Part shown: positions 6,023-21,831 of the stretch, in pieces
How the letters are laid out: every line of letters starts with the position of its first letter
How positions within the stretch are numbered: the first letter of the stretch is position 1
DNA from: Pedobacter sp. PF22-3
GTDB taxonomy: Bacteria; Bacteroidota; Bacteroidia; Sphingobacteriales; Sphingobacteriaceae
Assembly (NCBI RefSeq): GCF_026239555.1
Contig: NZ_JAPIVP010000015.1
Span: 1 to 64,000 of the forward strand
DNA: 64,000 nucleotides
Direction: 5' to 3'
Notes under the pieces: generated by a model
Database searches by the model: none
What the model was told of the DNA's origin: nothing
Seen by the model: only the letters and a program-made list of their open reading frames with translations
Position numbers and translations under genes: made by a program

Positions 6023-7248
6023 CTCAATATATTTTGCTTTTCAGCATTACCTGTAAATATGGCCGAACTGAGGTATACCCTGCTCCTGGCTTTTCTGTTT
6101 AGTATGACATCAATCAGGAAATTCTCATAGAGTGTTGCAGGGGTTTTCATAATAAAGCGGTTACAGGAAACCTTTCCTGCCACCTTTACCCCCTTATCAA
6201 GTTTTATTAGTCCTGTTGCGTAAACTTCGCCCTGCACCATGGTTTGCTCACCCAAGCCCACCAGGGTTTGCAAAGCCGATCTTTTGGGTTCGTAACTAAA
6301 AATAATGCCCTCAAAGTGGTTGTTTTTTCCGAGCGTGATCTTTGCCTGATCAACCATTTTTTCTTTACTCACCAGCCCTAATACCGATGGATAGTTCAGG
6401 CTTACGTCGTTTCCGATCACAATCGAGTCTCTGGCGAAAAGCTGGCAATTGCCTTTAAAACCATCGGCCACTACAATGCTTCTGGCATAAATGATGGTAT
6501 TATCCAGCTTTGCTGCAGCCGAAATCTTCACCGTTGTATCTGAATATAAAATAACCTGACCAGCAAGCTGGGTAGTGATCTGCCTCAAGCCCGATACATT
6601 AAACTTTTTGGCTTTGGCGAAAAAAGAAACCTGCTCATCAGCTCCATTTAAAGTGGGTAGTTTTGTTAAATCAAAATCAAGCTCCGTTTCTATTTCCTTA
6701 ATCCACTTGCTTTCCAGTCCGCCTAAGGTCCGTTTACTATCGGCAATTTTACCATAAACCAGTTGATCGCCCGAATAAGGCCGGCTATCTACATACGATT
6801 TACGCATCCCTGCCTTGGGCACTTCTACATTGCCGGTAATGCGGGTATCGCCACTAACAGACAAAGGTCTGTCTTCATCACTCAGGTACAAGGCCACCGC
6901 ATCGTTGGTGGTTTCCTGCCCCATCAAAAAACTTCGTTTCAGGGTATCAGCCAGCACGAAACTTTTAACGGTAGCGAGGGAAAAAATGCCCCAATGTTTT
7001 TGCTCAATCCATACACTATCGGTCTGGTCGCCAAAAAGATCCAATCCGATGTTATTTTCTTCGGAATTTGCATTTTGGGCCAATACGTACGAGATACCGG
7101 AATCCATATTCCTGCTGAGCCTGGCCATCCGTATCTCTTTCAAGTAACTTCCGCGATAATGCGCGGCCAGCATGATCAGTGAAGCGCAGATCAAAGCAAT
7201 GATGAAAGCTACGATGATAGAGAAATATAAAGCGCCGGCTTTAAGCAT
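6010..7248 (-). CDS. GspK/PilX-like minor pseudopilin with beta-rich body
   Basis: The 412-residue protein starts MLKAGALYFSIIVAFIIALI, a very short leader and a hydrophobic helix as in GspK/PilX-type pilins, which often lack Glu at position 5. The rest is beta-rich. It contains ITGNVEVPKAGMRKSYVDSR and several short repeating beta segments that could form a beta-helix (for example FEGIIFSYEP and MVQGEVYATGLIKLDKGVKV). It is the first of four pilus-type genes, read in the order K-like, two prepilins, gspF. It lies 138 bp downstream of the last fibre gene. The assignment rests on N-terminus, size and gene order. Confidence 0.72.
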   Translation of the reverse strand: MLKAGALYFSIIVAFIIALICASLIMLAAHYRGSYLKEIRMARLSRNMDSGISYVLAQNANSEENNIGLDLFGDQTDSVWIEQKHWGIFSLATVKSFVLADTLKRSFLMGQETTNDAVALYLSDEDRPLSVSGDTRITGNVEVPKAGMRKSYVDSRPYSGDQLVYGKIADSKRTLGGLESKWIKEIETELDFDLTKLPTLNGADEQVSFFAKAKKFNVSGLRQITTQLAGQVILYSDTTVKISAAAKLDNTIIYARSIVVADGFKGNCQLFARDSIVIGNDVSLNYPSVLGLVSKEKMVDQAKITLGKNNHFEGIIFSYEPKRSALQTLVGLGEQTMVQGEVYATGLIKLDKGVKVAGKVSCNRFIMKTPATLYENFLIDVILNRKARSRVYLSSAIFTGNAEKQNILRWQN

Positions 7249-7386: not shown

Positions 7387-8034
7387 CTATTTAACCTTTT
7401 TCTTCAGTTCATTGATTTCTTTCTGCTGGCTGATCATGTGAAGCGTTAGTTCTTCTATTTTTTGGAGCAACAGTTTATTCATTTCGCCAAGTTCAATCCC
7501 GTTTTTCGCCACTTCTTGTGCGCTTGGAATACCCGGGAGGTGTTTATTTGCTTTAATATAAAGGTCTAAATCTGATAGAGAAGAAATTTTATAATCCTTT
7601 CGGAACACGAAATCAGGCCAGCCTGTTGCTTCTACCTTAACTTCTTTGGCCCGTATATTGCCATTAACAGCCAGGCGTTCTGTACCGAAGGTTTCTGTGC
7701 CTATGCCCACTTTACCATCTGCACCCACAACCATGTGAACATAATATTTACTATCCACCCAATTTGTCGTACCGATTAAAAAGCGGTCATCCCCACTTCC
7801 ATAATCATCACCAATATTTACCCTCAAATCGCTCAAATTATTCGCCCTATTAAGCCGGTAAATGGAGAGTTCGTCAGAATTTGAAGTTACTCCGTTGAAT
7901 GTAAGCCTATTCCCGGCACCTGTTACTGCCCCGGCATCTGCGCCAATAGATAAATCCCCGTTGATAGTCTGACTTTGTGCTTTCACCATAATTACAGCAA
8001 TCATAAAAGCGAGTGTTAAATAGATTTTTTTCAT
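7387..8034 (-). CDS. Tail-fibre-like secreted array protein, member 15 (shortest, type A-like)
   Basis: The 215-residue protein has a signal peptide (residues 1-19, ending VKAQ) and a short variable part. One 'KVGIGTETFGTERLAVNGNI' unit links to the family's C-terminal module. The module (about 125-200) diverges from the others: ATGWPDFVFRKDYKISSLSD replaces the usual NWPDYVF...EGY...VGTL form, but KHLPGIPSAQEVAKNGIELG and EMNKLLLQKIEELTLHMI are conserved. A short coiled coil ends the protein. It is the last of fifteen tandem copies in transcription order and the shortest. Export is predicted; its function is unknown. Confidence 0.85.
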   Translation of the reverse strand: MKKIYLTLAFMIAVIMVKAQSQTINGDLSIGADAGAVTGAGNRLTFNGVTSNSDELSIYRLNRANNLSDLRVNIGDDYGSGDDRFLIGTTNWVDSKYYVHMVVGADGKVGIGTETFGTERLAVNGNIRAKEVKVEATGWPDFVFRKDYKISSLSDLDLYIKANKHLPGIPSAQEVAKNGIELGEMNKLLLQKIEELTLHMISQQKEINELKKKVK

Positions 8035-8055
8035 AAAATATAGTTTATTTGCTTA

Positions 8056-8880
8056 TTATCTTTTTTTAAGTTGGTCAAGTTGTTTTTGCTGGTCTACACT
8101 TTCTTTTTTTAGTTCGATGATATAAAGCGTTAACTCTTCAATTTTTTTAAGTAAAAGTTTATTCATTTCGCCTAGTTCAACTCCATTTTCTTTTACTTCT
8201 CTAGCAGTCGGTATATCAGGCAAATGTTTGCTTGCTTTGATATAACCTTCCAACGTTTCCAACGTTCCAACATTATAACCTTCATCAAAAACGTAATCAG
8301 GCCAGTTAGTGGCTTCTACTTTGATTTCTTTAGCACGGATTTTGCCGTTAACTGAAAGTTTTTCTGAAGGAAGGTCTGTACCTATGCCTACATTGCCGTC
8401 AATTACGTTCAGGTTACCAATATAGGTATGGGTGTTATCCCTGATAATATTATAAACAGTTAGGATACCACCATTATCATTTAAGTTATCGTCGTTTACT
8501 GAACCAAGTTCTAATGATCCAGCTAGAAAACTGCTAACTTTAAAAATACCTACATCAGCTCCTATTGCTGCTTTCACCCATATCTGACTCTCCCCTCCTA
8601 AATTTAACAATGCAAATTGTGGTTGTAACCAATTTGCATAGCCCATGCTATGGTGTTCTTGAATAGAAAAACTTTGCGAATTGATAAACTGAATCCGTCC
8701 GGAAATCAAAGATGGTTTATGTGCCGTAGTATGTTTGTAGGTGTATTCAAACTCGCTGTGCATGCCTCCAATTTTAGCTACCAAATACCATTTACCATCA
8801 GCAGGTAAACTGAATTGCTGTGCAGATAAACTTATTATACTGCTAAAAAAAACTGCAATTAATATAAATATATGCTTCAT
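8056..8880 (-). CDS. Tail-fibre-like secreted array protein, member 14 (type A)
   Basis: The 274-residue protein has a signal peptide (residues 1-20, LSAQ), a variable beta-rich N-terminal part without a GIG unit until about residue 165 (GNVGIGTDLPSEKLSVNGKI), and a type A module from about 178. The module has KVEATNWPDYVFDEGYNVGT, KHLPDIPTAREVKENGVELG and EMNKLLLKKIEELTLYII. The end is a lysine- and glutamine-rich coiled coil (ESVDQQKQLDQLKKR). The start overlaps the stop of the upstream member by 4 bp (ATGA). The short GIG unit resembles trimeric tail-fibre or adhesin stalks, so a fibrous surface protein is likely; the binding target is unknown. Confidence 0.87.
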   Translation of the reverse strand: MKHIFILIAVFFSSIISLSAQQFSLPADGKWYLVAKIGGMHSEFEYTYKHTTAHKPSLISGRIQFINSQSFSIQEHHSMGYANWLQPQFALLNLGGESQIWVKAAIGADVGIFKVSSFLAGSLELGSVNDDNLNDNGGILTVYNIIRDNTHTYIGNLNVIDGNVGIGTDLPSEKLSVNGKIRAKEIKVEATNWPDYVFDEGYNVGTLETLEGYIKASKHLPDIPTAREVKENGVELGEMNKLLLKKIEELTLYIIELKKESVDQQKQLDQLKKR

Positions 8881-9800
8881 TTTATTTTTCTTTTAAGTTT
8901 AGATATTTCCGTTTGTTGCCTGACTAACATTTTTGATTGCTCATTCATTTTATGCTCATGCTTAATGATGAACAAAGTAAGTTCTTCTATTTTTTGTTGC
9001 TGCAACTTTAGCATTTCACTCACCGCAATCCCATTTTCTTCTAGTTCTCTAGCACTTGGGATTCCAGGCAAATGTTTATGTACCATGATATAACCTTCCA
9101 ATTCTTCCAACGTTCCAACATTATAACCTTCATCAAAAACATAATCAGGCCAGTTAGTGGCTTCTACTTTAATTTCATGTGCTCTGATTTTACCGTTAAC
9201 GGAGAGTTTTTCTTTTGGATTAGTGGTACCGATACCCAGATCGCCATTGGCTAGTAAGGTAACGGCCTTAGTTTCGTTATTACCCACAGAGAATCCAATA
9301 CCATCGAAAGACCTGATTAATAAATCATTTCCGGTGCGTTTAAAACCAGCAATCATATTCCCGCCTAAATCAGTATGTTTTAACCAATATCCATCAATAC
9401 TATTATATTTAAGATTTACTTCACCGGCCACTTCAAGTCTAGAAGTTGGACTGAGTGTACCCAAACCTAGATTCCCACCAGATAGCACCATAAACGTTTG
9501 TCCCATGTCTCCCCACATCTGTACTCCGGTATAGGGGTTTCTTTCCCACCAGGTCCTGGTATCTACCTGTGGTTGTAAAAATGAAAGATCAACAGCGATC
9601 CCATCATGCAATGATGCGGAGAACCAATCGCTACCATTTTGATTACGGTACAGCCATGTTTTATGCATTACGTTATTTGCGATAGTTGAACCTCCGGCAC
9701 TTGATATTTCATAAACATTTCCTTTAACTGTACCAAGCTGAGCTTTCACCTGATTGAATACACTTAATATCAATACGGATACGAATATTATTTTTTTCAT
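8877..9800 (-). CDS. Tail-fibre-like secreted array protein, member 13 (type A)
   Basis: The start is set at the ATG at 9800. The frame extends upstream only through a TTG at 9821 that would overlap the previous gene, whereas ATG at 9800 gives MKKIIFVSVLILSVFNQVKA, a proper signal peptide, 1 bp after the upstream stop. The 307-residue product has two GIG-type units (GNLGLGTLSPTSRLEVAGEV and GDLGIGTTNPKEKLSVNGKI) and the type A module (KVEATNWPDYVFDEGYNVGT). It has the SEMLKLQQQKIEELTLFIIK ending that members 2, 3, 4 and 6 also use, and a coiled-coil tail. Confidence 0.86.
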   Translation of the reverse strand: MKKIIFVSVLILSVFNQVKAQLGTVKGNVYEISSAGGSTIANNVMHKTWLYRNQNGSDWFSASLHDGIAVDLSFLQPQVDTRTWWERNPYTGVQMWGDMGQTFMVLSGGNLGLGTLSPTSRLEVAGEVNLKYNSIDGYWLKHTDLGGNMIAGFKRTGNDLLIRSFDGIGFSVGNNETKAVTLLANGDLGIGTTNPKEKLSVNGKIRAHEIKVEATNWPDYVFDEGYNVGTLEELEGYIMVHKHLPGIPSARELEENGIAVSEMLKLQQQKIEELTLFIIKHEHKMNEQSKMLVRQQTEISKLKRKIK

Positions 9801-9801
9801 T

Positions 9802-10755
9802 TTATCGTTCTTTAAGTTCAATTTTATCCATTCGTTGAATCATTTTTTTGATGGCGTAATCTTGTTCAGCTTGTTTGGCTTTCAGTTGTATATTTTCAAC
9901 TGCTACTTTCTTAAGTGCTTTATCTTTTTCAATTAAATGCAAGGTTAGTTCCTCAATCTTTTTCTGCTGTAATTTCACCACCTCTCCTAACACTAAACCA
10001 TTCGTTTCTATATCTTTTGCACTTGGCATACCAGGCAGATGTCTATTTGCTTTAATATAACCTTCCAATTCTTCCAACGTTCCAACCTTGTAACCTTCAT
10101 CAAAAACATAATCAGGCCAGTTAGTTGCTTCTACTTTGATTTCCCGGGCACGGATATTGCCGTTTACGGATAATTTTTCACGGGGAGTGGTAGTACCTAT
10201 TCCGACATCGCCTTTACCAGATATGGATAGTTCAGGTGAGTATAGTCCTGATACGCTTGAAGGAATAAGCTGCACATAATCAACATACATATCCGTTACA
10301 CCAGGTTGAAAATTCATTCCCCTCATTTCTAAATTAGGAATTCCGTGAGGAATAGATACAGGGATGGTAATCAGCTGCCACTCGTTACTGGCTTTAAACA
10401 TATTGGGTGTAATCCACATAGACCCATACACGATAGCTCCATATTGACTAACGATATCAAGTGTGAAAAGGTTAGCTATCGAACTATTAGACGACACTTT
10501 TATTCTCACCTGAAAAAGATAATTTCCTGCGGTAACTGGTACATAAGGCCCAGCAAAGAAAGTTCCCCCAGCACTACTTGCAGGCCTGAACATACAGGCA
10601 CCTCCGTTTGCACCGGCATCGTTAATCATGGCAGTACCTTCCGTGGGAACTAATCCATTACTTTCATCATGAAAAAGGGTGGAGATCGCTCCCTGCGAAA
10701 AACAGTTGCCAAAACTGACAGCAAGCAATAAGGTTAAAAATAATTGTCTCATCAT
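9802..10755 (-). CDS. Tail-fibre-like secreted array protein, member 12, with jelly-roll-like N-domain (type A)
   Basis: The 317-residue protein has a signal peptide (1-20, NCFSQ). Residues about 22-165 form a beta-sandwich-like region (FFAGPYVPVTAGNYLFQVRI ... NEWQLITIPVSIP) that resembles carbohydrate-binding or galactose-binding-like folds. No other member has this region. One GDVGIGTTTPREKLSVNGNI unit, the type A module (KVEATNWPDYVFDEGYKVGT) and a long heptad tail follow. The different N-domain on the same C-terminus suggests that each member presents its own head domain. The carbohydrate-binding idea is inference from residue pattern only. Confidence 0.85.
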   Translation of the reverse strand: MMRQLFLTLLLAVSFGNCFSQGAISTLFHDESNGLVPTEGTAMINDAGANGGACMFRPASSAGGTFFAGPYVPVTAGNYLFQVRIKVSSNSSIANLFTLDIVSQYGAIVYGSMWITPNMFKASNEWQLITIPVSIPHGIPNLEMRGMNFQPGVTDMYVDYVQLIPSSVSGLYSPELSISGKGDVGIGTTTPREKLSVNGNIRAREIKVEATNWPDYVFDEGYKVGTLEELEGYIKANRHLPGMPSAKDIETNGLVLGEVVKLQQKKIEELTLHLIEKDKALKKVAVENIQLKAKQAEQDYAIKKMIQRMDKIELKER

Positions 10756-10756
10756 T

Positions 10757-11692
10757 TTATTTTTTTTTCTTTTTATTTTCCAAGATATCTACTCGATTAA
10801 TCAGTGCGTTGATCTGTTTGTCCTTTTCAATCAGGTGTAAAGTCAATTCTTCAACCTTTTGCAACAGTTTAATATTCAGTTCTCCCAGATTGACACCGTT
10901 TTCTACCATCTGTTTTGCAGCTGGGATCTCGGGCAGGTGTCTGTTGATTTTTATAAATTTCTCCAGTTCGGCTAATTCAGGAAGCTTATAATCAGCTTCG
11001 AATACAAAATCGGCTCCAGCGTTAGTCGAAACCTTTATTTCGCGGGCGCCTATCTTTCCAGCTACAGTAAGCATATCGGTTGGATTAGTGGTTCCAATGC
11101 CTACCCTGCTTCCCGTAGGGTTAATAATCAGATCACCTCCCCACTGCGTTAAATTATAATTGTGTGTACCAATTATTGTTCTACCACCAAAGCCACTTCC
11201 GATCACCAACCTATCCGATAAATTATCTGATCCACCAAAATCTGCTGCAATCCAACCTCCATTTAAACCAGCATCTTGTCCACTATTAAAAGAATTAATT
11301 GAATTACGACTATTCCAATTAAATACAGCATTTCCTAATCGCAAGCGATCCAGATGACTGTTCCCATTCACATTAAAAAGTTCAGTAGGAGAAAAAGTTC
11401 CGATCCCAACCTTACCACCTTGTGGATTGATATAGGTATTGCCTTGGTTATAATGGTTAATGTAAGTTGCAAAACCTGCTTTTGAATCGAGATGCAGGTT
11501 TCCGTTAGTTACGGCTACAAAAGCGTGATTGGTTACCTGTCCATTTCCTCCAACCTGCAAATATTCTGACCAGGTAGTATTTGGACCATACAGATGATAT
11601 TGATCTCCGGTGATGTTTATCGCTTGTCCATTTGCAGATGAAACGGCGAAAGAAAATAACAAAGCCTGAAATAAGATGCGTTTAATTTTCAT
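10757..11692 (-). CDS. Tail-fibre-like secreted array protein, member 11 (type B)
   Basis: The 311-residue protein has a signal peptide (1-22, ANGQ) and two or three GIG units (GKVGIGTFSPTELFNVNGNS, SRVGIGTTNPTDMLTVAGKI). Its module is type B: REIKVSTNAGADFVFEADYK, LPELAELEKFIKINRHLPEI, AAKQMVENGVNLGELNIKLL. Type B differs from type A in the first half (AGADFVFE for NWPDYVF) but keeps the EELTLHLIEKDK coiled-coil entry. The tail ends in a lysine run. Start and upstream stop overlap by 11 bp. Confidence 0.87.
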   Translation of the reverse strand: MKIKRILFQALLFSFAVSSANGQAINITGDQYHLYGPNTTWSEYLQVGGNGQVTNHAFVAVTNGNLHLDSKAGFATYINHYNQGNTYINPQGGKVGIGTFSPTELFNVNGNSHLDRLRLGNAVFNWNSRNSINSFNSGQDAGLNGGWIAADFGGSDNLSDRLVIGSGFGGRTIIGTHNYNLTQWGGDLIINPTGSRVGIGTTNPTDMLTVAGKIGAREIKVSTNAGADFVFEADYKLPELAELEKFIKINRHLPEIPAAKQMVENGVNLGELNIKLLQKVEELTLHLIEKDKQINALINRVDILENKKKKK

Positions 11693-12524
11693 TATTCTTT
11701 AATTTTCGGTTTTCAACCTCTAATTTTTCTATTCGTTTATTTAGTTGGATGACGTGTAAAGTAAGTTCTTCCAGACTTTTCAACAGCTTTTTGTTCACTT
11801 CACCCAATGCCAATCCATCTTTTTCAATTACTTTTGCAGATGGAATATCAGGCAAGTGTTTATTTGCCTTGATATAACCTTCCAATTCTTCCAACGTTCC
11901 AACCTTATAACCCTCATCAAAAACATAATCAGGCCAGTTGCTGGCTTCTACTTTGATTTCTCGGGCGCGGATGTTGCCGTTTACTGCTAATCTTTCATTA
12001 GGTGTGAGGGTTCCCATGCCAATGTTACCATTATTTACCACCAACCAATCGTTCATGAAACTGAGCTCCGGACGGCCAGAGAAAGAAGGTGAAAACTTAA
12101 TTAATTGTTCTTCCTGATCTGCGTTATTGGTTGCAACTATATCCAGATCTATCGCATTACCTCTATCTGTAGTTTTAAACTTCCAGCGGTAAATATTTTC
12201 ATAATTGGCAGACAGAACGATATTGGTTGCAGCAGGAGAATTACCAAAAATATGAAGTTGATTGTTGCTAAATGAGTTGGTATTAATACCTATTCCCGGA
12301 ACACTAAATACACCAGATGAGATCAATCTGTTTCCAAAAATATAAAGCCTTAAAGAAAAATCTTCAGTCCCATTATCAATCTCATGAAAATCAATATATT
12401 TCCCTAATTCAGATACACCATCACCTCCTATATGAACTGACTTATTCCAATTCTGTGCATTTGCATTTGTAAAAGCCAGACATAAAACTAATGCTATTGG
12501 AATCTTATCTATTCTTATTTTCAT
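11682..12524 (-). CDS. Tail-fibre-like secreted array protein, member 10 (type A)
   Basis: The 280-residue protein has a signal peptide (1-23, NANAQ) and a variable beta-rich N-part (about 24-165) without a second GIG unit. One GNIGMGTLTPNERLAVNGNI unit and the type A module follow (KVEASNWPDYVFDEGYKVGT, KHLPDIPSAKVIEKDGLALG). The coiled-coil tail is short and asparagine-rich. The start lies 20 bp inside the end of member 9, so translation is probably coupled. Confidence 0.87.
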   Translation of the reverse strand: MKIRIDKIPIALVLCLAFTNANAQNWNKSVHIGGDGVSELGKYIDFHEIDNGTEDFSLRLYIFGNRLISSGVFSVPGIGINTNSFSNNQLHIFGNSPAATNIVLSANYENIYRWKFKTTDRGNAIDLDIVATNNADQEEQLIKFSPSFSGRPELSFMNDWLVVNNGNIGMGTLTPNERLAVNGNIRAREIKVEASNWPDYVFDEGYKVGTLEELEGYIKANKHLPDIPSAKVIEKDGLALGEVNKKLLKSLEELTLHVIQLNKRIEKLEVENRKLKNNEN

Positions 12525-13614
12525 TTTGTTTTAATTTCAATTCAATTTCATTTAAATGGTTTTGCTGCTGTTTTAATAAGATTTTAAATTCATTAATCTC
12601 TTTATCGCGTGCTATAGACTTACTATTTTCTTCAATTAGATGAATTGTAAGTTCTTCAACCTTCTTTAATAATAGTTTATTTATTTCGCCTAGCTGCAAA
12701 CCATTTAATTCTATTTCATGAGCACTCGGCATCTCAGGCAAATGTTTATTTGCTTTGATATAACTTTCCAATTCTTTTAACGTTCCAACATTGTAACCCT
12801 CATCAAAAACATAATCAGGCCAATTGGTGGCTTCTACTTTGATTTCTCGGGCGCGGATGTTGCCATTTACGGATAATTTTTCGCGAGGCATACCAGTGCC
12901 TATGCCCACATCGCCATTAGCCTTAATTGTCATTGAAAGAGCCCCTGTGAAGGCCTGACCTTCAGTTACCGAACTTGGTGTATTGGTATAAAATAAAATA
13001 CCTCCCTGATGATTCTGCCCATTTCCCGGAATTACTATGGAAGCTCCAGACATTGAGGGATGTGTATTTGCAATCTTCTGATCATCATTGTCAGAAAAAA
13101 ACAGGTTAGAAGACATGAGTACGGTTCCATGATTATTAGAGCTAAAATTGGCATAGTTCTTTGTGCTCGTGTTAGAGTTTGTTTGACCAAAAGCTGCATT
13201 AAAGCTTTTAATATTACCAAGTACATCCAATTTTGATGCTGGATTCGAAACTCCTATACCCACATTTCCTGAACTTACCCTCAGTCCTCCCCGCTGGATA
13301 TCTACATAGCTATTTTGATATGAAATTCCCGGATCAAGGATGATGCCTGTGTCCCAGCTAAGTTTTAATTGTTGATAAGCTGGCGCAAGCCAAGACCCGG
13401 GTGTACGGTAGATCCCATAATTCAAAGGTCCTCCATTATACCAGGTAATCCCATCGGGTGTATCGCTTCCATCATTAAGATTATTAAAACTAATTTTTGC
13501 CGCAGGGTTTAAGGTACCAATGCCAACATTTCCACCGTTGGTAGGAAATACACTTTGTGCTGAAACGAGCCCAAAGCTTGAACTAAAGAATACAAGAGCG
13601 AGAATTTTCTTCAT
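12505..13614 (-). CDS. Tail-fibre-like secreted array protein, member 9 (type A, longest)
   Basis: The 369-residue protein has a signal peptide MKKILALVFFSSSFGLVSAQ that is almost the same as that of member 5 (16474-17190). Three GIG units (GNVGIGTLNPAAKISF, GNVGIGVSNPASKLDV, GDVGIGTGMPREKLSV) separate two variable parts. The type A module (KVEATNWPDYVFDEGYNVGT) and a long asparagine- and glutamine-rich coiled coil end the protein. DNA around its start (13533-13685) closely matches 17109-17261, a duplicated junction that includes the 3' end of the neighbouring gene. Confidence 0.87.
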   Translation of the reverse strand: MKKILALVFFSSSFGLVSAQSVFPTNGGNVGIGTLNPAAKISFNNLNDGSDTPDGITWYNGGPLNYGIYRTPGSWLAPAYQQLKLSWDTGIILDPGISYQNSYVDIQRGGLRVSSGNVGIGVSNPASKLDVLGNIKSFNAAFGQTNSNTSTKNYANFSSNNHGTVLMSSNLFFSDNDDQKIANTHPSMSGASIVIPGNGQNHQGGILFYTNTPSSVTEGQAFTGALSMTIKANGDVGIGTGMPREKLSVNGNIRAREIKVEATNWPDYVFDEGYNVGTLKELESYIKANKHLPEMPSAHEIELNGLQLGEINKLLLKKVEELTIHLIEENSKSIARDKEINEFKILLKQQQNHLNEIELKLKQNENKNR

Positions 13615-13617
13615 ATT

Positions 13618-14619
13618 TTAATGTTTAATATTTTTCCTGATGATTAACAATTCTTTCATTACGCGATCAATCTGTTGCTGTTGTTTTTTATTGATGGCTT
13701 GTTCGTCATGAAGCTGTTTATCCTTTTCAATAAGATGCAGGGTGAGCTCTTCAACCTTTTGCAGCAGTTTGATGTTCAATTCCCCAAGATTTACTCCTTC
13801 ATCTACCATTTGTTTTGCTGTCGGAATTTCAGGAAGGTGTTTATTGGTTTTTACAAATTTTTCCAATTCTGTTAAGTCTGGGAGTTTGTAATTCGGTTCG
13901 AATACAAAATCGGCACCGGCATTGGTAGAAACTTTAATTTCTCGTGCACCGATTTTACCTGCGACAGTTAGCAAATCTGTTGGATTGGTTGTGCCAATCC
14001 CTACATTGCCAACAGGATCAATAACCATTCTAACCAAGGGTTGTGAACCATAAGCGGTAGCAAAAACCAATCTTGCCTTAGCATCATTGGTAGCGTCATC
14101 AGTAAGCTGAGCACCTATATAGGCCATTCCTTTATTAAATTGTGCATTCCGTGCTATCCAGCTTACACTGCCTGCAGAACTTCCACTCATGATCGAATTA
14201 TTGCTAAGAATCAGGTGCGATTGACTATTCATTTCAGCATTTGGATTGAAGATCTCAAAGACTTTATTATTTCCACCATGATAATAACTTTGGGGATTTG
14301 GTACATTTAAGCCAAGGTTGCCTGAGGGTATGTCCATTGCTAAAAAGCTGGTTCCAGAATATGGACCGCCCAAAAATATTCTTTTAGTGGAAGTGGCCCC
14401 ATAGATGGATTGCGAATTGTAGCCACCAATAAAAATGGCTTCGGGGTCCCAACCATGGTAGCTACCAATCAGCTGCTGTATAAAACCATTCTGACTACTT
14501 ACCACAATATTATCATAACTATCTTTAATGGTGATTCTCGGGGTAACCACAGGATCCTGTGCTTTCAATTGCATGATAAAGCAAATGTTCAGCAATATAT
14601 ATATCGAATATTTTTTCAT
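13618..14619 (-). CDS. Tail-fibre-like secreted array protein, member 8 (type B, mosaic)
   Basis: The 333-residue protein has a signal peptide (1-20, QLKAQ), a variable N-part, one GNVGIGTTNPTDLLTVAGKI unit and a type B module (ADFVFEPNYKLPDLTELEKF, KQMVDEGVNLGELNIKLLQK). Its module DNA is identical over 142 nt to that of member 7 (13751-13892 against 14776-14917). The last residues (QQQQIDRVMKELLIIRKNIK) match the end of member 4, a type A protein. The gene therefore looks like a mosaic of two parents. Start overlaps the stop of member 7 by 4 bp. Confidence 0.87.
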   Translation of the reverse strand: MKKYSIYILLNICFIMQLKAQDPVVTPRITIKDSYDNIVVSSQNGFIQQLIGSYHGWDPEAIFIGGYNSQSIYGATSTKRIFLGGPYSGTSFLAMDIPSGNLGLNVPNPQSYYHGGNNKVFEIFNPNAEMNSQSHLILSNNSIMSGSSAGSVSWIARNAQFNKGMAYIGAQLTDDATNDAKARLVFATAYGSQPLVRMVIDPVGNVGIGTTNPTDLLTVAGKIGAREIKVSTNAGADFVFEPNYKLPDLTELEKFVKTNKHLPEIPTAKQMVDEGVNLGELNIKLLQKVEELTLHLIEKDKQLHDEQAINKKQQQQIDRVMKELLIIRKNIKH

Positions 14620-15551
14620 TTCCGTTTTGGATTTATAGCCATTGTTCTTTTGAGCTCAGTTTGCAATGACAAGAGCATTTGCTGCTGATCTTTCATCGCT
14701 TTTTTAAGATCATTAATATCCGTTAACTGTGCAGTTAAGGTTTTATCCTTCTCAATCAGATGCAAAGTAAGTTCCTCAACCTTTTGCAGCAGTTTGATGT
14801 TCAATTCCCCAAGATTTACTCCTTCATCTACCATTTGTTTTGCTGTCGGAATTTCAGGAAGGTGTTTATTGGTTTTTACAAATTTTTCCAATTCTGTTAA
14901 GTCTGGGAGTTTGTAATCGGGCTCAAACACAAAGTCGGCTCCCGCATTAGTGGAAACCTTTATTTCGCGGGCACCAATGTTGCCAGCTACCGTAAGCTTA
15001 TCCTGTGGATTAGCTGTCCCAATACCTACATTTCCATTTTGCAGAAAACTAAAAACATATGGATTATTCGTATCTGAAAAACTTCCTGTATGCCCACCAA
15101 AACCGTTGTCCATTGCTAATAACTTAAATACGCCATTACTCGTTCCCATTTTAAATGATGAGATATCCGGTTGATGAAAGGTGATCACTGGTTGGTTTGC
15201 TTTAATTTCGAACGACTCTGCCGGTGCTGTTGTTCCAATCCCAAGGTTTCCCATCAGATAACTTGCTTTACCTAATTCTGATGAAATTGAGGCATTGGGT
15301 GTTTGTGGTGTATTCCATGCCGAGAAATTAAAATTTTGACCTGTACTACTGATCCTGGAGGCACTATAATTCGACCACCACATGATACTACTGTCATGTC
15401 TTACACCTCCGTTAGCATCGCTACCGATAACCACATCTGCCCCATAGGGATTATTGGGATCTATAACATTATTTCCGGTAGTTACTACCTGTACTTGCGC
15501 CAATGCGGCACTTCCTGAGCACAACAGGAAGGAGAGCAATAAAATTTTCAT
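14616..15551 (-). CDS. Tail-fibre-like secreted array protein, member 7 (type B)
   Basis: The 311-residue protein has a signal peptide (1-18, AALAQ) and two GIG-type units (GNLGIGTTAPAESFEIKANQ, GNVGIGTANPQDKLTVAGNI). The type B module follows (ADFVFEPDYKLPDLTELEKF), and a coiled-coil tail ends the protein. The module is the donor or recipient of the 142-nt identical block shared with member 8. The 29-bp spacer to member 6 is one of the larger gaps in the array. Confidence 0.87.
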   Translation of the reverse strand: MKILLLSFLLCSGSAALAQVQVVTTGNNVIDPNNPYGADVVIGSDANGGVRHDSSIMWWSNYSASRISSTGQNFNFSAWNTPQTPNASISSELGKASYLMGNLGIGTTAPAESFEIKANQPVITFHQPDISSFKMGTSNGVFKLLAMDNGFGGHTGSFSDTNNPYVFSFLQNGNVGIGTANPQDKLTVAGNIGAREIKVSTNAGADFVFEPDYKLPDLTELEKFVKTNKHLPEIPTAKQMVDEGVNLGELNIKLLQKVEELTLHLIEKDKTLTAQLTDINDLKKAMKDQQQMLLSLQTELKRTMAINPKRK

Positions 15552-15580
15552 TTGTTTGGTTTAAATTTGAAAAGGATAAT

Positions 15581-16477
15581 CTATTTTTTATTTTTCAGCC
15601 CCTTGAGATCAGCATTTTGAGTTTCTACTTTTTTACTTAATTCGATGAGCTGTAAGGTTAATTCTTCTATTTTTTGTTGCTGCAGTTTCAGCATTTCGCT
15701 TACCGCAATCCCATTTGCCTCCACATCTTTGGCACTCGGCATTCCAGGCAAATGTTTATGCGTTTTGATATAACTTTCCAACACTTCCAAAGTTCCAACC
15801 TTATAACCTTCCTCAAAAACATAATCAGGCCAGTTGGCGGCTTCAACCTTTACTTCTTTTGCCCTGATCTTGCCGTTAACAGAAAGCTTTTCTGTGGGGT
15901 TTAATGTACCAAACCCAATATTGCCCGAGTTGTTAAAAAAAGAGAAGCTTTCTGGATTAGCATTTGATGACCAGGTAAATTGCGTTGGTGTAGTGTTTTC
16001 CTTTTGAAAGTAAGGAGTAAAATCATTACCTCTAATTAGGAAAGTTAAGCCAAGATTTGCAATTGGTGTTTTGATATAAACATCATAAAGCTCTTCATTC
16101 CCATTTTCATTTGAGATTTTTGCATACCATTGCAATTGGTTAGCAGAATTTCCAGATAACTGTAAAATGGGTTTTTGTGTACCCGATAACTTTTGCGGAA
16201 AAGAAAAATCGATATAACTACCTCCCGATCCTTGATAATCTACAAAATAAGCACGACCAGCCACACCTCCTTTGCCCCAAAAACCTTGTGAAGGATTATA
16301 GTTTTTTATTGAAAATAGTTTTATCCATTCTTGCTCCACCGTATGGTGATAATATTCATAAACATAAAGTTTGGTATTGCTATTTTTATTTGGATCACCC
16401 AATATGGTTTGTGCATTACCTAAATGGTAACCAATTAATAAAGCAATTAAAATGATCCAGAATTTGAAGTTTTTCAT
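15581..16477 (-). CDS. Tail-fibre-like secreted array protein, member 6 (type A)
   Basis: The 298-residue protein has a signal peptide (1-22, LGNAQ). A variable N-domain of about 170 residues has no GIG unit; it is beta-rich and aromatic (YVYEYYHHTVEQEWIKLFSI). One GNIGFGTLNPTEKLSVNGKI unit, the type A module (KVEAANWPDYVFEEGYKVGT) and a short coiled coil follow. The start overlaps the stop of member 5 by 4 bp. The head domain has no match I recognise. Confidence 0.86.
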   Translation of the reverse strand: MKNFKFWIILIALLIGYHLGNAQTILGDPNKNSNTKLYVYEYYHHTVEQEWIKLFSIKNYNPSQGFWGKGGVAGRAYFVDYQGSGGSYIDFSFPQKLSGTQKPILQLSGNSANQLQWYAKISNENGNEELYDVYIKTPIANLGLTFLIRGNDFTPYFQKENTTPTQFTWSSNANPESFSFFNNSGNIGFGTLNPTEKLSVNGKIRAKEVKVEAANWPDYVFEEGYKVGTLEVLESYIKTHKHLPGMPSAKDVEANGIAVSEMLKLQQQKIEELTLQLIELSKKVETQNADLKGLKNKK

Positions 16478-17190
16478 AATTTTTGAGCTTTAGATTTTAG
16501 CGCTTCTAATTCTTTTTTGATAATTATCATTTCTCTATCTTTTTGAATTAGATAGAGCGTAATTTCCTCTACTTTTTTAAGCAACAGTTTGTTCATTTCA
16601 CCTAATGCTATCCCATTTTCTTGTACTTCTTTAGCTGAAGGAATCTCTGGCAAATGTTTATTCGCTTTGATATAACTTTCCAACTCTGCCAACGTTCCAA
16701 CCTTATAATCCTCAGCAAAAACATAATCAGGCCAGTTGGTGGCTTCTACCTTGATTTCGCGGGCACGGATATTGCCATTTACGGAGAGTTTTTCTGAAGG
16801 AGTAAATGTGCCAAGGCCTAAATTCCCATTTGCACCGAGGTTCATTAACACATATTCGGTATCGGTTCCGGCATCTCTTTTGAGCCATTGGAAAAGTGGA
16901 AATGCAGCTCTGCTATCAATCCTAAAGGCAGCGCCTAAAAACGAACTTTTTTTATTTGCTTCTCTAAAGTTCAAACTCATATTAAACAGCGGGACAGTAC
17001 CGCCAACTTCAGTATTTAATCCTAACGGTATTTCAGCATTCGAAATCAGGATGTTTCCTCTAACATCCAATTTTTCTTGTGGTGTAATTGTTCCTATTCC
17101 AACGTTGGCACCGTTGGTAGGAAATACACTTTGTGCTGAAGCCGCCCCAAAGCTTGCACTAAGGAACATAAGAGCGAGAATTTTCTTCAT
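16474..17190 (-). CDS. Tail-fibre-like secreted array protein, member 5 (type A)
   Basis: The 238-residue protein is one of the shorter members. It has a signal peptide (MKKILALMFLSASFGAASAQ) nearly identical to that of member 9. Two or three GIG units follow (ANVGIGTITPQEKLDVRGNI, GNLGLGTFTPSEKLSVNGNI), then the type A module (KVEATNWPDYVFAEDYKVGT, KHLPEIPSAKEVQENGIALG) and a basic coiled-coil tail. Its 5' end and the 3' end of member 4 form the junction block duplicated at 13533-13685. Confidence 0.86.
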   Translation of the reverse strand: MKKILALMFLSASFGAASAQSVFPTNGANVGIGTITPQEKLDVRGNILISNAEIPLGLNTEVGGTVPLFNMSLNFREANKKSSFLGAAFRIDSRAAFPLFQWLKRDAGTDTEYVLMNLGANGNLGLGTFTPSEKLSVNGNIRAREIKVEATNWPDYVFAEDYKVGTLAELESYIKANKHLPEIPSAKEVQENGIALGEMNKLLLKKVEEITLYLIQKDREMIIIKKELEALKSKAQKL

Positions 17191-17193
17191 ATT

Positions 17194-18285
17194 TTAATGT
17201 TTAATATTTTTCTTGATGATTAACAATTCATTGATTACACGATCTAGCTGTTGCTGTTGTTTTATATTTATGACTTTTTCATCACGAAGCTGTCTATCCT
17301 TTTCGATGAGATGCAAGGTTAATTCTTCTATTTTTTGCTGTTGTAATTTTAACATTTCACTCACCGTAATTCCATTCGCTTCTACTTCTTGAGCACTCGG
17401 CATTCCAGGCAAATGTTTATGCGTTTTGATATAACTTTCCAATTCTTCCAACTTTCCAACCTTATAACCCTCAGCAAAAACGTAATCAGGCCAATTGGTG
17501 GCTTCTACTTTTATTTCGCGGGCGCGAATATTGCCGTTTACGGAAAGCTTTTCCCGAGGGCTTAATGTCCCCATTCCAATATTTCCAACGCCATCAATCA
17601 CAATATCATCACCATAAAACCATTGTTGGCCATTTCCATACTTATCAAACATCCTTCGGGTGCCCAGAATCATTTTACCGGTAGCATTACCATTACCTGT
17701 ATTTCCCGCTACAGTCATTATTCTGGCCTGTCCCCAAGGGTTACTTCCGTCTGTATTACCTGGTATCACAAATTCAAGTGAGGAACCTTTATCTTCAAGT
17801 CGCCCTCCCGTTTGGGCTTCAACAATAAGACTACTATTAGTATTATAATTATTACCATCGTTAAGGTTTGCTCCATTACCTAAAGCACGAACTTTTGAAG
17901 GATTATTCAATTGTGATTGCACCCAATCTTGTGTTGCAACTGTATGCCAGTTACCCCAAGTACTTTGATATTGCTGACGATAGTATAAGCCATCAGTAAA
18001 ATAACCGAGTCCGATTTGCCCTATCCAGTTATTGCCATGATCATGCTGCATTTCAATAATATGATACCAATCAGAGGATGTAGGGGCATTTATTTGGGTT
18101 TGGGCGTTAAATATATACATCCCCGGCATGCCCGTCCCTCCCCAGTTTTGATTAATATTTAAATCACCTGTGTATTGATTGGCATTAGTTTTAACACCAT
18201 TAGCAGTTGTTAGTGGCTCTTGCGCAATTACCGCCTCAGACAGTCCTAGTGCGGTAATCAATAACAATACTTTCTTATTTAGCAT
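17194..18285 (-). CDS. Tail-fibre-like secreted array protein, member 4, with pyocin-knob-like N-domain (type A)
   Basis: The 363-residue protein has a signal peptide (1-21, AVIAQ). Residues about 30-120 resemble the knob domain of phage and pyocin tail fibres (NAPTSSDWYHIIEMQHDHGN ... YQSTWGNWHTVATQDWVQSQ). This is the clearest link between the array and tail-fibre receptor-binding parts. After a second variable part come a GNIGMGTLSPREKLSVNGNI unit, the type A module (NWPDYVFAEGYKVGKLEELE) and a tail (QQQQLDRVINELLIIKKNIK) shared with member 8. The start overlaps member 3 by 11 bp. Confidence 0.86.
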   Translation of the reverse strand: MLNKKVLLLITALGLSEAVIAQEPLTTANGVKTNANQYTGDLNINQNWGGTGMPGMYIFNAQTQINAPTSSDWYHIIEMQHDHGNNWIGQIGLGYFTDGLYYRQQYQSTWGNWHTVATQDWVQSQLNNPSKVRALGNGANLNDGNNYNTNSSLIVEAQTGGRLEDKGSSLEFVIPGNTDGSNPWGQARIMTVAGNTGNGNATGKMILGTRRMFDKYGNGQQWFYGDDIVIDGVGNIGMGTLSPREKLSVNGNIRAREIKVEATNWPDYVFAEGYKVGKLEELESYIKTHKHLPGMPSAQEVEANGITVSEMLKLQQQKIEELTLHLIEKDRQLRDEKVINIKQQQQLDRVINELLIIKKNIKH

Positions 18286-19318
18286 TTTTTAGTTTTTTTT
18301 GAGTTAACCTGGTTTTGGTGCTTTTCATTTCTAGCTTTAGCAAGCGTTCTTCATAGCTTTTATTTATTGTTCTCTGTTCAGTAAGTTGTTTATCTTTTTC
18401 GATCAGATGCAGCGTCAACTCCTCTATCTTTTTCTGTTGTAATTTGAGCATTTCACTCACCGCAATTCCATTCACTTCTACTTCTTGAGCACTTGGCATT
18501 CCAGGCAAATGTTTATGCGTTTTGATATAACTTTCCAATTCTTCCAACTTTCCAATCTTATAACCCTCAGCAAAAACATAATCGGGCCAGTTGGTGGCTT
18601 CTACCTTAATTTCTTTGGCCCTGATGTTACCATTTACTGCAAGTTTATCAGTGGGTGAATTCACGCCTATGCCCATATTTCCATTACCTAAAATTCTTAA
18701 GAGTTGTCTTTCCTGACTAGCATTATTATAACTATAAAAAGCAAACCCACCTTGAGATCCGGCGCCTTCGTTAGCAACAAAATCAGTCTCTCCATCTCCA
18801 GCAGTCCTATTCCAGCCCATCAGCATCTTACCTGTACCTGCCAGGCTTTGATACGCAACAGGGTTTCCGTACATATCAAGGTTTGCATACTGTCCTCCAA
18901 ACTTTACCGTACCCATCACATCCAATGTCGCACTAGGATCTGATGTACCGATGCCTACATACCCATTATATTGCCAGGTCATAGCATGCTGATCTGGCAC
19001 ATTGTTCTGATTGGCTGCTCCGTTTACAAAAAGGTCTAACCTCGAGCCCCACACATTCGGGCCACCATGAGCAATCCTAAATTCTGCCGATTCAGGATAA
19101 CTGTAATTCGGTGTCCCAGGGCGCGAAAACTTCAACAGCGATTGTGCAGACGAGACTACACCAGCTGGTTTGCTATCTGGATTAACTAATATATGCAATG
19201 GCGCACTAGGATTAAGCGTACCAATTCCTGCCGGGCCATTATTTGGAAAGGTATTCTGTGCATGAGTCAGGCTTCCTCCACACATTATGGAGCAGAGCAT
19301 TAAAAATTTAAAATTCAT
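18275..19318 (-). CDS. Tail-fibre-like secreted array protein, member 3 (type A)
   Basis: The 347-residue protein has a signal peptide (1-20, THAQ) and repeated GIG units (AGIGTLNPSAPLHI, GYVGIGTSDPSATLDV, GNMGIGVNSPTDKLAVNGNI) separated by variable parts. The type A module (NWPDYVFAEGYKIGKLEELE) is almost identical to that of member 4. The tail is long, basic and coiled-coil-like. The start lies 2 bp after the out-of-frame stop of the frameshifted member 2 (TAA at 19321-19323), which shows where member 2 originally ended. Confidence 0.87.
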   Translation of the reverse strand: MNFKFLMLCSIMCGGSLTHAQNTFPNNGPAGIGTLNPSAPLHILVNPDSKPAGVVSSAQSLLKFSRPGTPNYSYPESAEFRIAHGGPNVWGSRLDLFVNGAANQNNVPDQHAMTWQYNGYVGIGTSDPSATLDVMGTVKFGGQYANLDMYGNPVAYQSLAGTGKMLMGWNRTAGDGETDFVANEGAGSQGGFAFYSYNNASQERQLLRILGNGNMGIGVNSPTDKLAVNGNIRAKEIKVEATNWPDYVFAEGYKIGKLEELESYIKTHKHLPGMPSAQEVEVNGIAVSEMLKLQQKKIEELTLHLIEKDKQLTEQRTINKSYEERLLKLEMKSTKTRLTQKKLKNAK

Positions 19319-19320
19319 GT

Positions 19321-19395
19321 TTAATGTTTTTGTTGATCAGTTTTTGGATTATTGTCTTCCAGAATTCCCATCCTTTTAATCAGTTCATCAAGTTT
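19321..19395 (-). pseudogene. Out-of-frame coiled-coil tail of array member 2
   Basis: This stretch encodes about 23 residues beginning LDELIKRMGILEDNN, in the frame next to that of member 2, and ends with TAA 2 bp before the ATG of member 3. It aligns with the tail of member 11 (INALINRVDILENKKKK). It is the detached end of member 2. Confidence 0.75.
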
Positions 19396-20171
19396 TTATC
19401 TTTTTCGATGAGATGTAAGGTTAGTTCTTCTATTTTTTGTTGCTGCAGTTTCAGCATTTCACTTACCGCAATCCCATTTACTTCTATATCTTTGGCAGAT
19501 GGCATTCCAGGCAAGTGCTTGTTTGCTTTGATATAATCTTCCAACGCTTTCAACGGCCCAACCTGATAACCATCTTCAAAAACATAATCGGGCCAGTTAG
19601 TAGCTTCTACCTTGATTTCTTTAGCGCGGATGTTACCATTTATGGCCAACTTATAATTGTTGTCAGGAATGGCCATGTTAATCGCCAAATTCCCCTCATG
19701 ATCACTTGTAATTACTGACTTGATGTTTAACGGAAGTAGCTCTGTTAACCCTGAAGGAAGAGATTCAGTGACGGTATTTACCACTAGTTTGGTCGCGTCT
19801 CCTCCAAACATACAAGATTTAACGGCTATGGCAGTCCAGTGGTTAGTAATTAAATAGAAATCTATATTACCATTCGTATTATGATAAGCATGCAGAGAAT
19901 AGCGGTCTGAGATACCACCCGTCGTAAATTTTGTTATTCTTAACTCATTTCTGTTGGCAATATAATAAGTAGTTTCGCCTGTTTGATAAGATTCCCAGGC
20001 TCCTCCCAAAACCTCTACCTTTAGTTTCTGCAAATTGGAGCCATCACTTGGGGGCAGGCTCCCTAGATATACATGCAATTGTTGCCCAGCATTTCCAATT
20101 ATTTCTTTGCCATATTGTGCTTTTAGAAGAAATGGAAATAAGTATAACAAGATTAGGATTATTTTTTTCAT
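19380..20171 (-). CDS. Tail-fibre-like secreted array protein, member 2 (type A), C-terminus shortened by a frameshift
   Basis: The 263-residue frame has a signal peptide (1-18, LLKAQ), a variable N-domain of about 150 residues, an atypical GIG-like unit (GNLAINMAIPDNNYKLAING) and the type A module (NWPDYVFEDGYQVGPLKALE). It stops abruptly after HLIEKDKNLMN, where its relatives continue with a coiled coil. In the next frame the sequence reads LDELIKRMGILEDNNPK and on to a TAA at 19321-19323, as expected for the missing tail. One base, most simply an A in the A5 run (minus strand) at 19393-19397, seems to have been lost. The protein may still fold, because module and coiled-coil start are intact. 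Confidence 0.82.
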   Translation of the reverse strand: MKKIILILLYLFPFLLKAQYGKEIIGNAGQQLHVYLGSLPPSDGSNLQKLKVEVLGGAWESYQTGETTYYIANRNELRITKFTTGGISDRYSLHAYHNTNGNIDFYLITNHWTAIAVKSCMFGGDATKLVVNTVTESLPSGLTELLPLNIKSVITSDHEGNLAINMAIPDNNYKLAINGNIRAKEIKVEATNWPDYVFEDGYQVGPLKALEDYIKANKHLPGMPSAKDIEVNGIAVSEMLKLQQQKIEELTLHLIEKDKNLMN

Positions 20172-20230
20172 GATGGGTTGAGGAGTGTTAATAAGTATAT
20201 CGTTTAAATTTTCAGCTAATGATTAGCAGT

Positions 20231-21217
20231 TTATTTTATTTTCTTCAAGATTTCTTTAAGCATTTTATCCTGGCGGTCAAGCTTCGTTTCGAGAGTGGTG
20301 ATTTTAAGGTTTTGTTTGTTAAGCTGCTTTTCTTTTTCGATCAGATGTAAAGTGAGCTCCTCAACCTTTTGCAACAGCTTAATATTCAGTTCACCGAGGT
20401 TTACTCCATTTTCTACCATCTGCTTGGCCGTTGGGATTTCGGGAAGTTGTTTATTGGTTTTTACGAATTTTTCCAGTTCGGCTAATTCAGGAAGTTTATA
20501 ATCGGGTTCGAAAACGAAATCGGCACCTGTGGTATTTACCACTATTTCATTGGCCCGGGCTTTTCCGTTTACGTCAAGAAGATACGTACTGTTAGCTTGA
20601 CTTGTTTTACCAATGATTACATTACCATTGTCACTAATTACAAATTTCGGCCCCATCGCGGAATTATCCTGATTATAACTCCAAAACTGTAGAGAATTAC
20701 CATAATATCCAGTCATATTGTATATCGCCCAGCGATAGGCCAAATTACTGGCCGTTTTATTAGGGTTTTCGAGCCACAAAGATCCGCCTTCATTTGAGCC
20801 TACATTAGACAGAATACTGCCAGCAACAGATAATTTTTGAGTTGGGTTATCTATTCCTATACCTACATTACCAGCACCTTTTAGTGTTAAAACTGTTTTG
20901 GGACCATTTTTATAGGCTCCTAGCACGAGGTATGGATCTGCCGGATTACTTACATAATTGAAATGAAATTCATCTTCAGAACCATTTGTACCTTCTGAAA
21001 ACGCACCTTTAAATAAAATAGTTCCTAAACCGCCACTTAAACTCGGCGCAAGTCTTAACACAGGCCTTTGACCTTCAATCTGCAATACTGGTCCGCCAAA
21101 CCAAGAGGTTGGATTTAGTGTACCAATACCCACATTTCCTGAAGTTGGGAAAGTATTTTGGGCAAACAAAAAGTTACCCGTAAATAATGAGAGGCCAATT
21201 AAGATGATTTTTTTCAT
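20231..21217 (-). CDS. Tail-fibre-like secreted array protein, member 1 (type B)
   Basis: The 328-residue protein is the first fibre gene in transcription order. It has a signal peptide (1-19, FLFAQ) and GIG-type units (GNVGIGTLNPTSWF, GNVGIGIDNPTQKLSVAGSI, GNVIIGKTSQANSTYLLDVN). A divergent type B module follows (ANEIVVNTTGADFVFEPDYK, KQLPEIPTAKQMVENGVNLG), then a heptad tail. Its ATG overlaps the stop of the MORN-repeat gene by 4 bp, which ties the array to the upstream gspC-like and lipoprotein genes. Confidence 0.87.
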   Translation of the reverse strand: MKKIILIGLSLFTGNFLFAQNTFPTSGNVGIGTLNPTSWFGGPVLQIEGQRPVLRLAPSLSGGLGTILFKGAFSEGTNGSEDEFHFNYVSNPADPYLVLGAYKNGPKTVLTLKGAGNVGIGIDNPTQKLSVAGSILSNVGSNEGGSLWLENPNKTASNLAYRWAIYNMTGYYGNSLQFWSYNQDNSAMGPKFVISDNGNVIIGKTSQANSTYLLDVNGKARANEIVVNTTGADFVFEPDYKLPELAELEKFVKTNKQLPEIPTAKQMVENGVNLGELNIKLLQKVEELTLHLIEKEKQLNKQNLKITTLETKLDRQDKMLKEILKKIK

Positions 21218-21831
21218 TGTTTTGTTTTTTTATCTTTTTTAAAAATGGATTTTAACCAACGGGCAATTTTCACTGCCCTGCTGGGTTGGTAAGCGATAAC
21301 CTTACCTTTATTGTAGCGGATAACCTGGATACTATCGGCACTCACCCGCTTTTCCAGTTTCCCATTTAATAAACCATCGAGGTATTTTCCCCTTTCCAGC
21401 AGTATACCATCCTGATCGTATTTTTCAAACCTGCCGTTGGCTTTACCTGAAGAATAATTAATGATTGAATCCAGTTTTCCGTCTTCACCCCAGTTTTTCC
21501 ATCTACCTGTTTTCAGACCCATTTGGTATAATCCCTGTGTTTTAAGTCCTTTGGTATCGTAAAATTCATTATATATACCATCCAGCAGTTTACCGCTATA
21601 GCCACCTTGGGTGTATCGGATCTGGTTGCCGCTAAACCAGGCATAATTTCGGTCAGATTTCATATTACCTAACCCTGTTTCCGGTTTTTGCACATAAAAA
21701 ACAGCTTTATAATGCTCGTAATTAACGGTATGGGTATAGTGATCTACATTAAAATAGGATGTTATTCGTTGTGCACCAGCCTTAAAAAACAGCAGGCACA
21801 GCAGGAGCATGGTGATGTAAACTAATTTCAT
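21214..21831 (-). CDS. Exported MORN-repeat (YwqK-type) protein
   Basis: The 205-residue protein has a signal peptide (1-20, KAGAQ) and four to five MORN-like repeats between about residues 75 and 175 (LLDGIYNEFYDTKGLKTQGL, MGLKTGRWKNWGEDGKLDSI, KANGRFEKYDQDGILLERGK). A basic tail follows. Such YwqK-type proteins are common in Bacteroidota and are often named antitoxins without proof. It overlaps its upstream neighbour by 4 bp and the first fibre gene by 4 bp, so it belongs to the same operon. A structural or binding role at the envelope is likely; the exact role is unknown. Confidence 0.82.
   Translation of the reverse strand: MKLVYITMLLLCLLFFKAGAQRITSYFNVDHYTHTVNYEHYKAVFYVQKPETGLGNMKSDRNYAWFSGNQIRYTQGGYSGKLLDGIYNEFYDTKGLKTQGLYQMGLKTGRWKNWGEDGKLDSIINYSSGKANGRFEKYDQDGILLERGKYLDGLLNGKLEKRVSADSIQVIRYNKGKVIAYQPSRAVKIARWLKSIFKKDKKTKQ

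Follow-up and report, generated by a model that had tools for sequence, protein, structure and literature searches.

We analysed a 64,000-nucleotide stretch of the genome of the soil bacterium Pedobacter sp. PF22-3 (contig NZ_JAPIVP010000015.1; hereafter, the window). Between positions 7387 and 21217, the minus strand of the window carries fifteen consecutive open reading frames (ORFs) of 215-369 residues, with no unrelated gene interposed, which encode a family of secreted, fibre-like proteins (Table 1). The array is nested in a Bacteroidota operon for a machine that resembles a type II secretion system (T2SS), between the GspC-like side of the operon and its pseudopilin and GspF genes.

The fibre array and its C-terminal module

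The fibre genes are tightly packed. Seven neighbouring pairs overlap (by 4, 20, 11, 20, 4, 4 and 11 bp), and the remaining gaps measure 1-61 bp; a preliminary description of the locus gave the overlaps correctly as 4-20 bp but was off by two in limiting the gaps to 59 bp (19319-19379 is 61 bp). The frames are intact in all fifteen genes. Every product passed a crude rule for a Sec signal peptide, and none had a lipobox. The fifteen sequences share 22 invariant alignment columns, all located within the last ~100 residues. Pairwise identity within the array had a median of 26.0% (maximum 39.6%) for the N-terminal heads and of 59.8% (minimum 42.6%) for the C-terminal modules. Because of the shared columns, the identity pattern and the signal peptides, the fifteen tandem, same-strand paralogues first described, each with a signal peptide, a variable N-terminal part and a conserved C-terminal module, are real and far beyond chance. 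None of the fifteen fibres matched a Pfam family above the cut-off, and NCBIfam gave no match with a meaningful E-value.

A simple pattern search found the GIGT-type stalk pattern in 14 of the fifteen fibres, in line with the GIG-type stalk units noted earlier. In the tails, the fraction of hydrophobic residues at heptad positions a and d was 0.68, compared to 0.52 in shuffled sequences. The AlphaFold2 monomer of the module (the C-terminal 125 residues of fibre 5) consisted of short helices and one long C-terminal helix. Heptad spacing and the long helix both support the C-terminal coiled coil that had been proposed. Searched alone with Foldseek, the module model gave no significant match; two of the weak matches were to the Bdellovibrio fibre Bd3182.

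We also modelled the full chain of fibre 12 as a monomer, with a predicted local distance difference test (pLDDT) score of 80 and a predicted template modelling (pTM) score of 0.49. Foldseek matched this model to the carbohydrate-binding modules (CBMs) CBM6, CBM35, CBM36, CBM4 and CBM16 and to Cry proteins (best E-value 3e-7, probability 1.0), in alignments of ~140-180 columns that we took as spanning its β-sandwich head. The jelly-roll head suggested previously for this member is thus confirmed, as a β-sandwich of the CBM or Cry-domain-III type; an Endotoxin_C match below the Pfam cut-off was seen in the same protein. For fibre 4, searches of Pfam, PHROGs and PDB sequences did not support the pyocin-knob head that had been suggested.

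For genome searches we used a profile of the conserved C-terminal module (A2). In the genome of PF22-3, it detected 20 copies: the fifteen of the array, three on contig C1, and one each on contigs C59 and C27. The module was present in 194 of 395 Bacteroidia genomes.

The secretion operon and its RHS neighbours

In the direction of transcription, the LytTR, lipoprotein, GspC-like and MORN genes precede the array, and the pseudopilin and GspF genes follow it (Table 1). Contig C27 carries genes for GspG, prepilin peptidase, GspE, GspD and a GspL-like protein, arranged divergently from another fibre gene. The part list of the Bacteroidota T2SS-like system was matched: GspD, GspE, GspF, GspG, prepilin peptidase, minor pseudopilins and L-, M- and C-like genes. 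GspF, GspE and GspD exceeded their Pfam cut-offs and GspG has a pilin motif, while for the peptidase, L, M and C the names follow from the gene order of the Cytophaga cluster, without a profile match. A canonical T2SS was rejected, as the scores fell below the NCBIfam equivalog cut-offs (GspF 244 of 424 bits, GspE 485 of 630, GspD 118 of 351). The secretin scored 124 bits against PilQ, on a par with its GspD score. The failed cut-offs agree with the work of Denise et al. (PMC6668835), who placed the Bacteroidota machine apart from T2SS, branching with type IVa pili (T4aP), and proposed it as a new type of secretion system. No Rfam element reached the gathering threshold in positions 1-30000. 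The preliminary description, whose adhesin repertoire is taken up below, had missed both this operon and the adjoining RHS gene.

Two relatives (G001 and G020) have the same order of flanking genes, with 70-94% identity to those of PF22-3, and a different set of heads in the array between them. Three more relatives have fibres at several points: at the PepA24-GspE junction, at that of GspM with the lipoprotein gene, at the MORN-K junction, and downstream of GspF. Among Pedobacter genomes, at least seven module copies were present in all ten that are GspF-positive (7-26 copies), versus two of the 15 that are GspF-negative (Fisher p = 2e-5). Eighteen of 24 T2SS genes lay within 10 kb of a fibre, against 0.45 expected under uniform placement, and GspD, E or F lay within 25 kb of 80 of the 120 listed fibres; here uniform placement is a simple null, the coordinates come from the matches listed, and neither here nor in the class-level comparison of the module below are the genomes independent. 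Two or more T2SS genes accompany at least 27 of the 74 named module loci, in two families (the loci come from Pedobacter, Sphingobacterium, Parapedobacter, Arcticibacter, Mucilaginibacter, Maribacter and others). This count is a lower bound, because the flanks stop at 10 kb and three arrays with no visible T2SS gene are from GspF-positive genomes.

The first gene past the operon, at the contig edge, encodes a secreted RHS-type protein ("A"; Table 1). In relatives, A has DUF6443-RHS "B" proteins as neighbours, in which the core end is conserved (50%) and the tip variable (22%). At the sequence level this is the pattern of polymorphic toxins, and it resembles the RHS toxins in the accessible part of a published survey (PMC3482391). 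That part of the survey lists RHS toxins under a general "T2SS" export label and uses neither the word pseudopilin nor the word secretin, and fibre arrays of this kind were not seen in it. A or B still adjoins the T2SS-like loci that have no fibres (G347, G368, G316, G339); therefore, the machine is more consistently accompanied by RHS proteins than by fibres. DUF6443 was present in 55 of 63 GspF-positive and 59 of 332 GspF-negative Bacteroidia (odds ratio 32, p = 1e-26), and in 41 of 46 when counted by genus (p = 3e-13); example loci are L134-L136, L140, L141 and L148. Moreover, DUF6443 and GspF lie at most 25 kb apart in 20 listed genomes of 16 genera, pairs that were picked from listings and show proximity but give no rate.

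Three fibre contigs terminate in RHS sequence, namely C7 (window 1-221), C1 (1-9000) and C27 (1-3500). Assembly breaks in RHS repeats are therefore probable, and fibre, T2SS and RHS loci may be one island. In G001, an RHS-tip ORF (L026, 16815-17567) has a Lipase_3 match above the Pfam cut-off and is a possible RHS effector tip.

Table 1. Positions of the fibre genes, the surrounding operon and other genes in the window
Feature	Position	Strand	Remarks
LytTR transcription regulator	23267..24109	-	Operon head
Lipoprotein, Fn3/Ig-like repeats	22319..23263	-	Repeats sub-cutoff; constant operon member
GspC/PilP-like inner-membrane protein	21828..22319	-	Named by gene position and appearance
MORN_2-like secreted protein	21214..21831	-	Directly upstream of array; conserved place in relatives
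Fibre 1	20231..21217	-	328 aa; first transcribed
Fibre 2	19380..20171	-	263 aa
Fibre 3	18275..19318	-	347 aa
Fibre 4	17194..18285	-	363 aa; earlier pyocin-knob label not confirmed
Fibre 5	16474..17190	-	238 aa; modelled part 16477-16851
Fibre 6	15581..16477	-	298 aa
Fibre 7	14616..15551	-	311 aa; head 82% identical to G001 fibre, module only 54%
Fibre 8	13618..14619	-	333 aa
Fibre 9	12505..13614	-	369 aa
Fibre 10	11682..12524	-	280 aa; head similar to phage tail-fibre PHROG (4.7e-7)
Fibre 11	10757..11692	-	311 aa
Fibre 12	9802..10755	-	317 aa; CBM6/CBM35/CBM36-like β-sandwich head
Fibre 13	8877..9821	-	314 aa counted from TTG; ATG start probable a few codons further in
Fibre 14	8056..8880	-	274 aa; head 88%, module 65% identical to fibre of GspF-less G009
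Fibre 15	7387..8034	-	215 aa; last
Large minor-pseudopilin candidate	6010..7248	-	GspK-like position, same place in relatives; bactofilin-like similarity sub-cutoff
Pseudopilin	5657..6022	-	N-terminal methylation motif (sub-cutoff)
Pseudopilin-like protein	5200..5676	-	Conserved place in relatives
GspF-like inner-membrane platform protein	4059..5198	-	PF00482, 2.3e-45
RHS-type "A" protein	221..3880	-	1219 aa; RHS/YD repeat end
capP-like gene	32157-32957		Strand opposite to rest of CBASS operon
CD-NTase (SMODS)	34081-35055		PADLOC cyclase 3e-170
E2-like protein, CBASS	34997-35440
4TM effector, CBASS	35450-36223

Mosaic heads and SprF-linked arrays

In G009, a genome with no GspF, a PorP/SprF gene (PF11751, 3e-76) lies about 40 bp from the fibres. 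SprF also adjoins the arrays of four further named GspF-less genomes, so that none of the five has GspF. SprF-type arrays occupy L035 (12862-19269) and L037 (7061-14756) in G009, and L056, L059, L065 and L072; several of the SprF-type modules seen read NAPDYVF in place of NWPDYVF. Neither A nor B occurs at SprF-type loci, and the T2SS-linked loci showed no SprF-like gene.

Mapped on a tree of 139 modules, the T2SS or SprF label requires 6 changes, versus 31 in shuffles. Heads, in turn, cross between the two settings, as illustrated by fibre 14, which is closer in its head than in its module to a fibre of the SprF-type genome G009 (Table 1). Fifty-five cross-genome head pairs had at least 75% identity. 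In 30 of them, module identity lay over 5 points below head identity, and in 5 it lay above; a few of these pairs are doubled, as L043 repeats L027, and L045 and L077 repeat other G010 loci. The mismatch between head and module identity across genomes, together with the tree, indicates that heads reassort and modules follow the local setting.

Since the module carries a coiled coil and its lineage tracks the export neighbours while the heads swap, we favour a role as a trimerisation or folding cap and/or an export adaptor rather than an anchor. The "shared anchoring end" of the preliminary description is kept as one of three readings of the module, with the evidence favouring the other two. 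The interpretation given there thus holds in part: a repertoire of surface adhesins, here with exchangeable heads, is well supported by the diversity of the heads, their mosaic reassortment and the one head of a carbohydrate-binding type.

Proposed export of the fibres and comparison with known systems

We consider it fairly probable that this array forms a cassette encoding exchangeable, secreted trimeric fibre adhesins, which the T2SS-like machine exports. Judging by the signal peptides, the fibre chains would enter the periplasm via Sec. Sequence features and the related MAT fibres discussed below suggest that trimerisation would proceed through the C-terminal coiled coil and the module, with the GIGT β-stalk behind. 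Type II systems transport folded proteins. For this reason, and because the trimeric adhesin Lcl of Legionella uses one (PMC11162425), such a route would fit the fibres, which, given the position and co-occurrence of their genes, may cross the outer membrane in a folded state through the pseudopilus and secretin. On the surface, the variable N-terminal head would bind glycans or other surface ligands, as the one modelled head suggests. Recombination moves heads among modules, and the module lineage keeps to the local secretion setting. In GspF-less relatives, where the module adjoins a PorP/SprF gene, export may instead fall to the type IX apparatus. Given the secreted RHS/DUF6443 proteins that flank the machine, export by the island probably covers the target-binding fibres as well as the RHS proteins, and the two may cooperate.

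A wider proposal, which we regard as tentative and rather doubtful, is that the Bacteroidota "T2SS" is a distinct system with dedicated, paired cargo. RHS/DUF6443 toxins would act against neighbouring bacteria, trimeric fibres with swappable heads would choose the target surface, the module would serve as an export or docking tag, and a type IX (SprF) version would operate in the lineages lacking the machine.

Several observations count against export of the fibres by the T2SS-like machine, or against the structural part of the argument. The model of the module is of intermediate quality (pLDDT 76, pTM 0.56), all models are monomers, and the fold was examined for one head of fifteen (fibre 12). 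The modules cluster by genome as well; therefore, gene conversion could imitate partner matching, and within-genome gene conversion is an alternative cause of modules following their setting. At the class level, the module was found in 46 of 63 GspF-positive and 148 of 332 GspF-negative Bacteroidia (p = 3e-5), so it is not T2SS-specific; an obligate fibre-T2SS link is ruled out by the latter group, and 17 of the 63 GspF-positive genomes have no module. Furthermore, the fibre genes of G023 are single and scattered, and neither T2SS nor SprF genes adjoin them. The GspF-negative carriers, the single genes of G023 and the five GspF-less genomes in which SprF adjoins the arrays would also be expected if the fibres were surface adhesins with T2SS-independent export (e.g., type IX export with PorP/SprF) and the island only gathered fast-evolving surface genes. 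We find this unlikely, given that the genus-level co-occurrence with GspF is strong and one-directional, that fibres are inserted among T2SS genes at several points, and that SprF is confined to arrays other than the T2SS-linked ones among the loci seen. The fibres were also rejected as type IX cargo, as neither Pfam nor NCBIfam matched a known T9SS C-terminal domain, although divergent signals may escape these searches.

Two other origins can be weighed against T2SS-like export. The fibres might be structural or tip parts of the pseudopilus, which would then work as an adhesive, type IV-like pilus whose tip adhesins can be exchanged, and not cargo. This would suit the branching of the Bacteroidota system with T4aP and not with T2SS (PMC6668835), a secretin that scores with PilQ as well as with GspD, and the minor-pilin genes adjoining the fibre genes. 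It is made quite improbable by the Sec signal peptides, found in place of prepilin N-termini, by the finding of one full-length PF00437 ATPase genome-wide and hence of no PilT-type retraction ATPase, and by the number of parallel tips, as up to 15 per operon would be unusual. That the genes derive from the tail fibres of a decaying prophage or from a tailocin is hardly credible, even though tail-fibre or tail PHROG families match up to 11 of the 15 fibres. There are no phage structural genes around the array, the products have signal peptides and undamaged frames, and the module was absent from the 50,697 phage records searched, with one match in a scan of viral contigs. By these searches, the module is of a cellular, Bacteroidota type and not of a phage type.

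The array resembles the MAT fibres of Bdellovibrio (PMC10769870), which are likewise a secreted family with multiple members per genome, diverse binding domains and a mosaic build. A trimeric GIGT β-stalk may be a further common trait: searched against PDB sequences, the module profile gave a MAT structure as its best match (8ond, E-value 0.001), limited to 24 residues of the stalk part. However, MATs have in common a β-rich domain of ~130 residues directly behind the signal peptide, and their C-terminal tip is variable, with an S74 chaperone-protease in 13 of 21 (PMC10769870), whereas the Pedobacter fibres vary at the N-terminal part, share the C-terminal module, have no S74 and include one array in a secretion operon. 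Membership in the MAT superfamily was rejected because the N-terminal parts are only 26% identical (median) and the conserved part is a C-terminus without S74. Lcl is a T2SS-exported, trimeric, stalk-and-head adhesin that binds glycosaminoglycans (PMC11162425), a likeness that extends to the putative trimer and export of our fibres; it differs in its collagen stalk, C-terminal head and canonical T2SS, and no sequence relation to the fibres was found. The array would resemble MAT fibres in its working but belongs to neither the MAT nor the Lcl family.

Like the S74 chaperone-proteases, the module is a conserved C-terminal part carried by otherwise unrelated fibres. S74 membership was rejected, since PF13884 has no match in the array (the genome's sole match lies on contig C2) and there is no S-K dyad among the invariant columns. 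A trimeric autotransporter (type Vc secretion, T5cSS) was rejected as well, as Pfam found no YadA-type anchor and the C-terminus is a helical coil.

The T2SS-like system of Cytophaga hutchinsonii has the same machine parts (PMC5553014; PMC6668835), and a cluster of this kind is also listed for Flavobacterium johnsoniae (PMC5553014). In Pedobacter, the operon encloses fibre arrays and adjoins RHS/DUF6443 genes, whereas in Cytophaga no direct cargo was identified. Cytophaga T2SS mutants adhere less to cellulose, and the adhesins were not identified either (PMC5553014); putative fibres of this kind could explain the loss of adhesion. We found no report that ties fibre arrays or RHS genes to a T2SS-like machine in the literature searched, which left most subscription papers outside. 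We infer that the array encodes fibre adhesins of a trimeric kind, at a location that is unexpected and open to experiment. It gives a poorly understood machine its first concrete candidate cargo, and the RHS link adds another. The two-partner pattern, in which modules go with the T2SS-like machine or SprF and heads are shared, could be used to track down the export tag. Should the T2SS-like export reading be true, a MAT-like adhesin repertoire exists outside predatory bacteria.

Elsewhere in the window, positions 32157-36223 hold an anti-phage operon of the cyclic-oligonucleotide-based anti-phage signalling system (CBASS) type (Table 1). At 29784-31371, a gene for a HEPN-domain protein (29784-30695, PF05168) is followed by an unassigned ORF of 195 residues.

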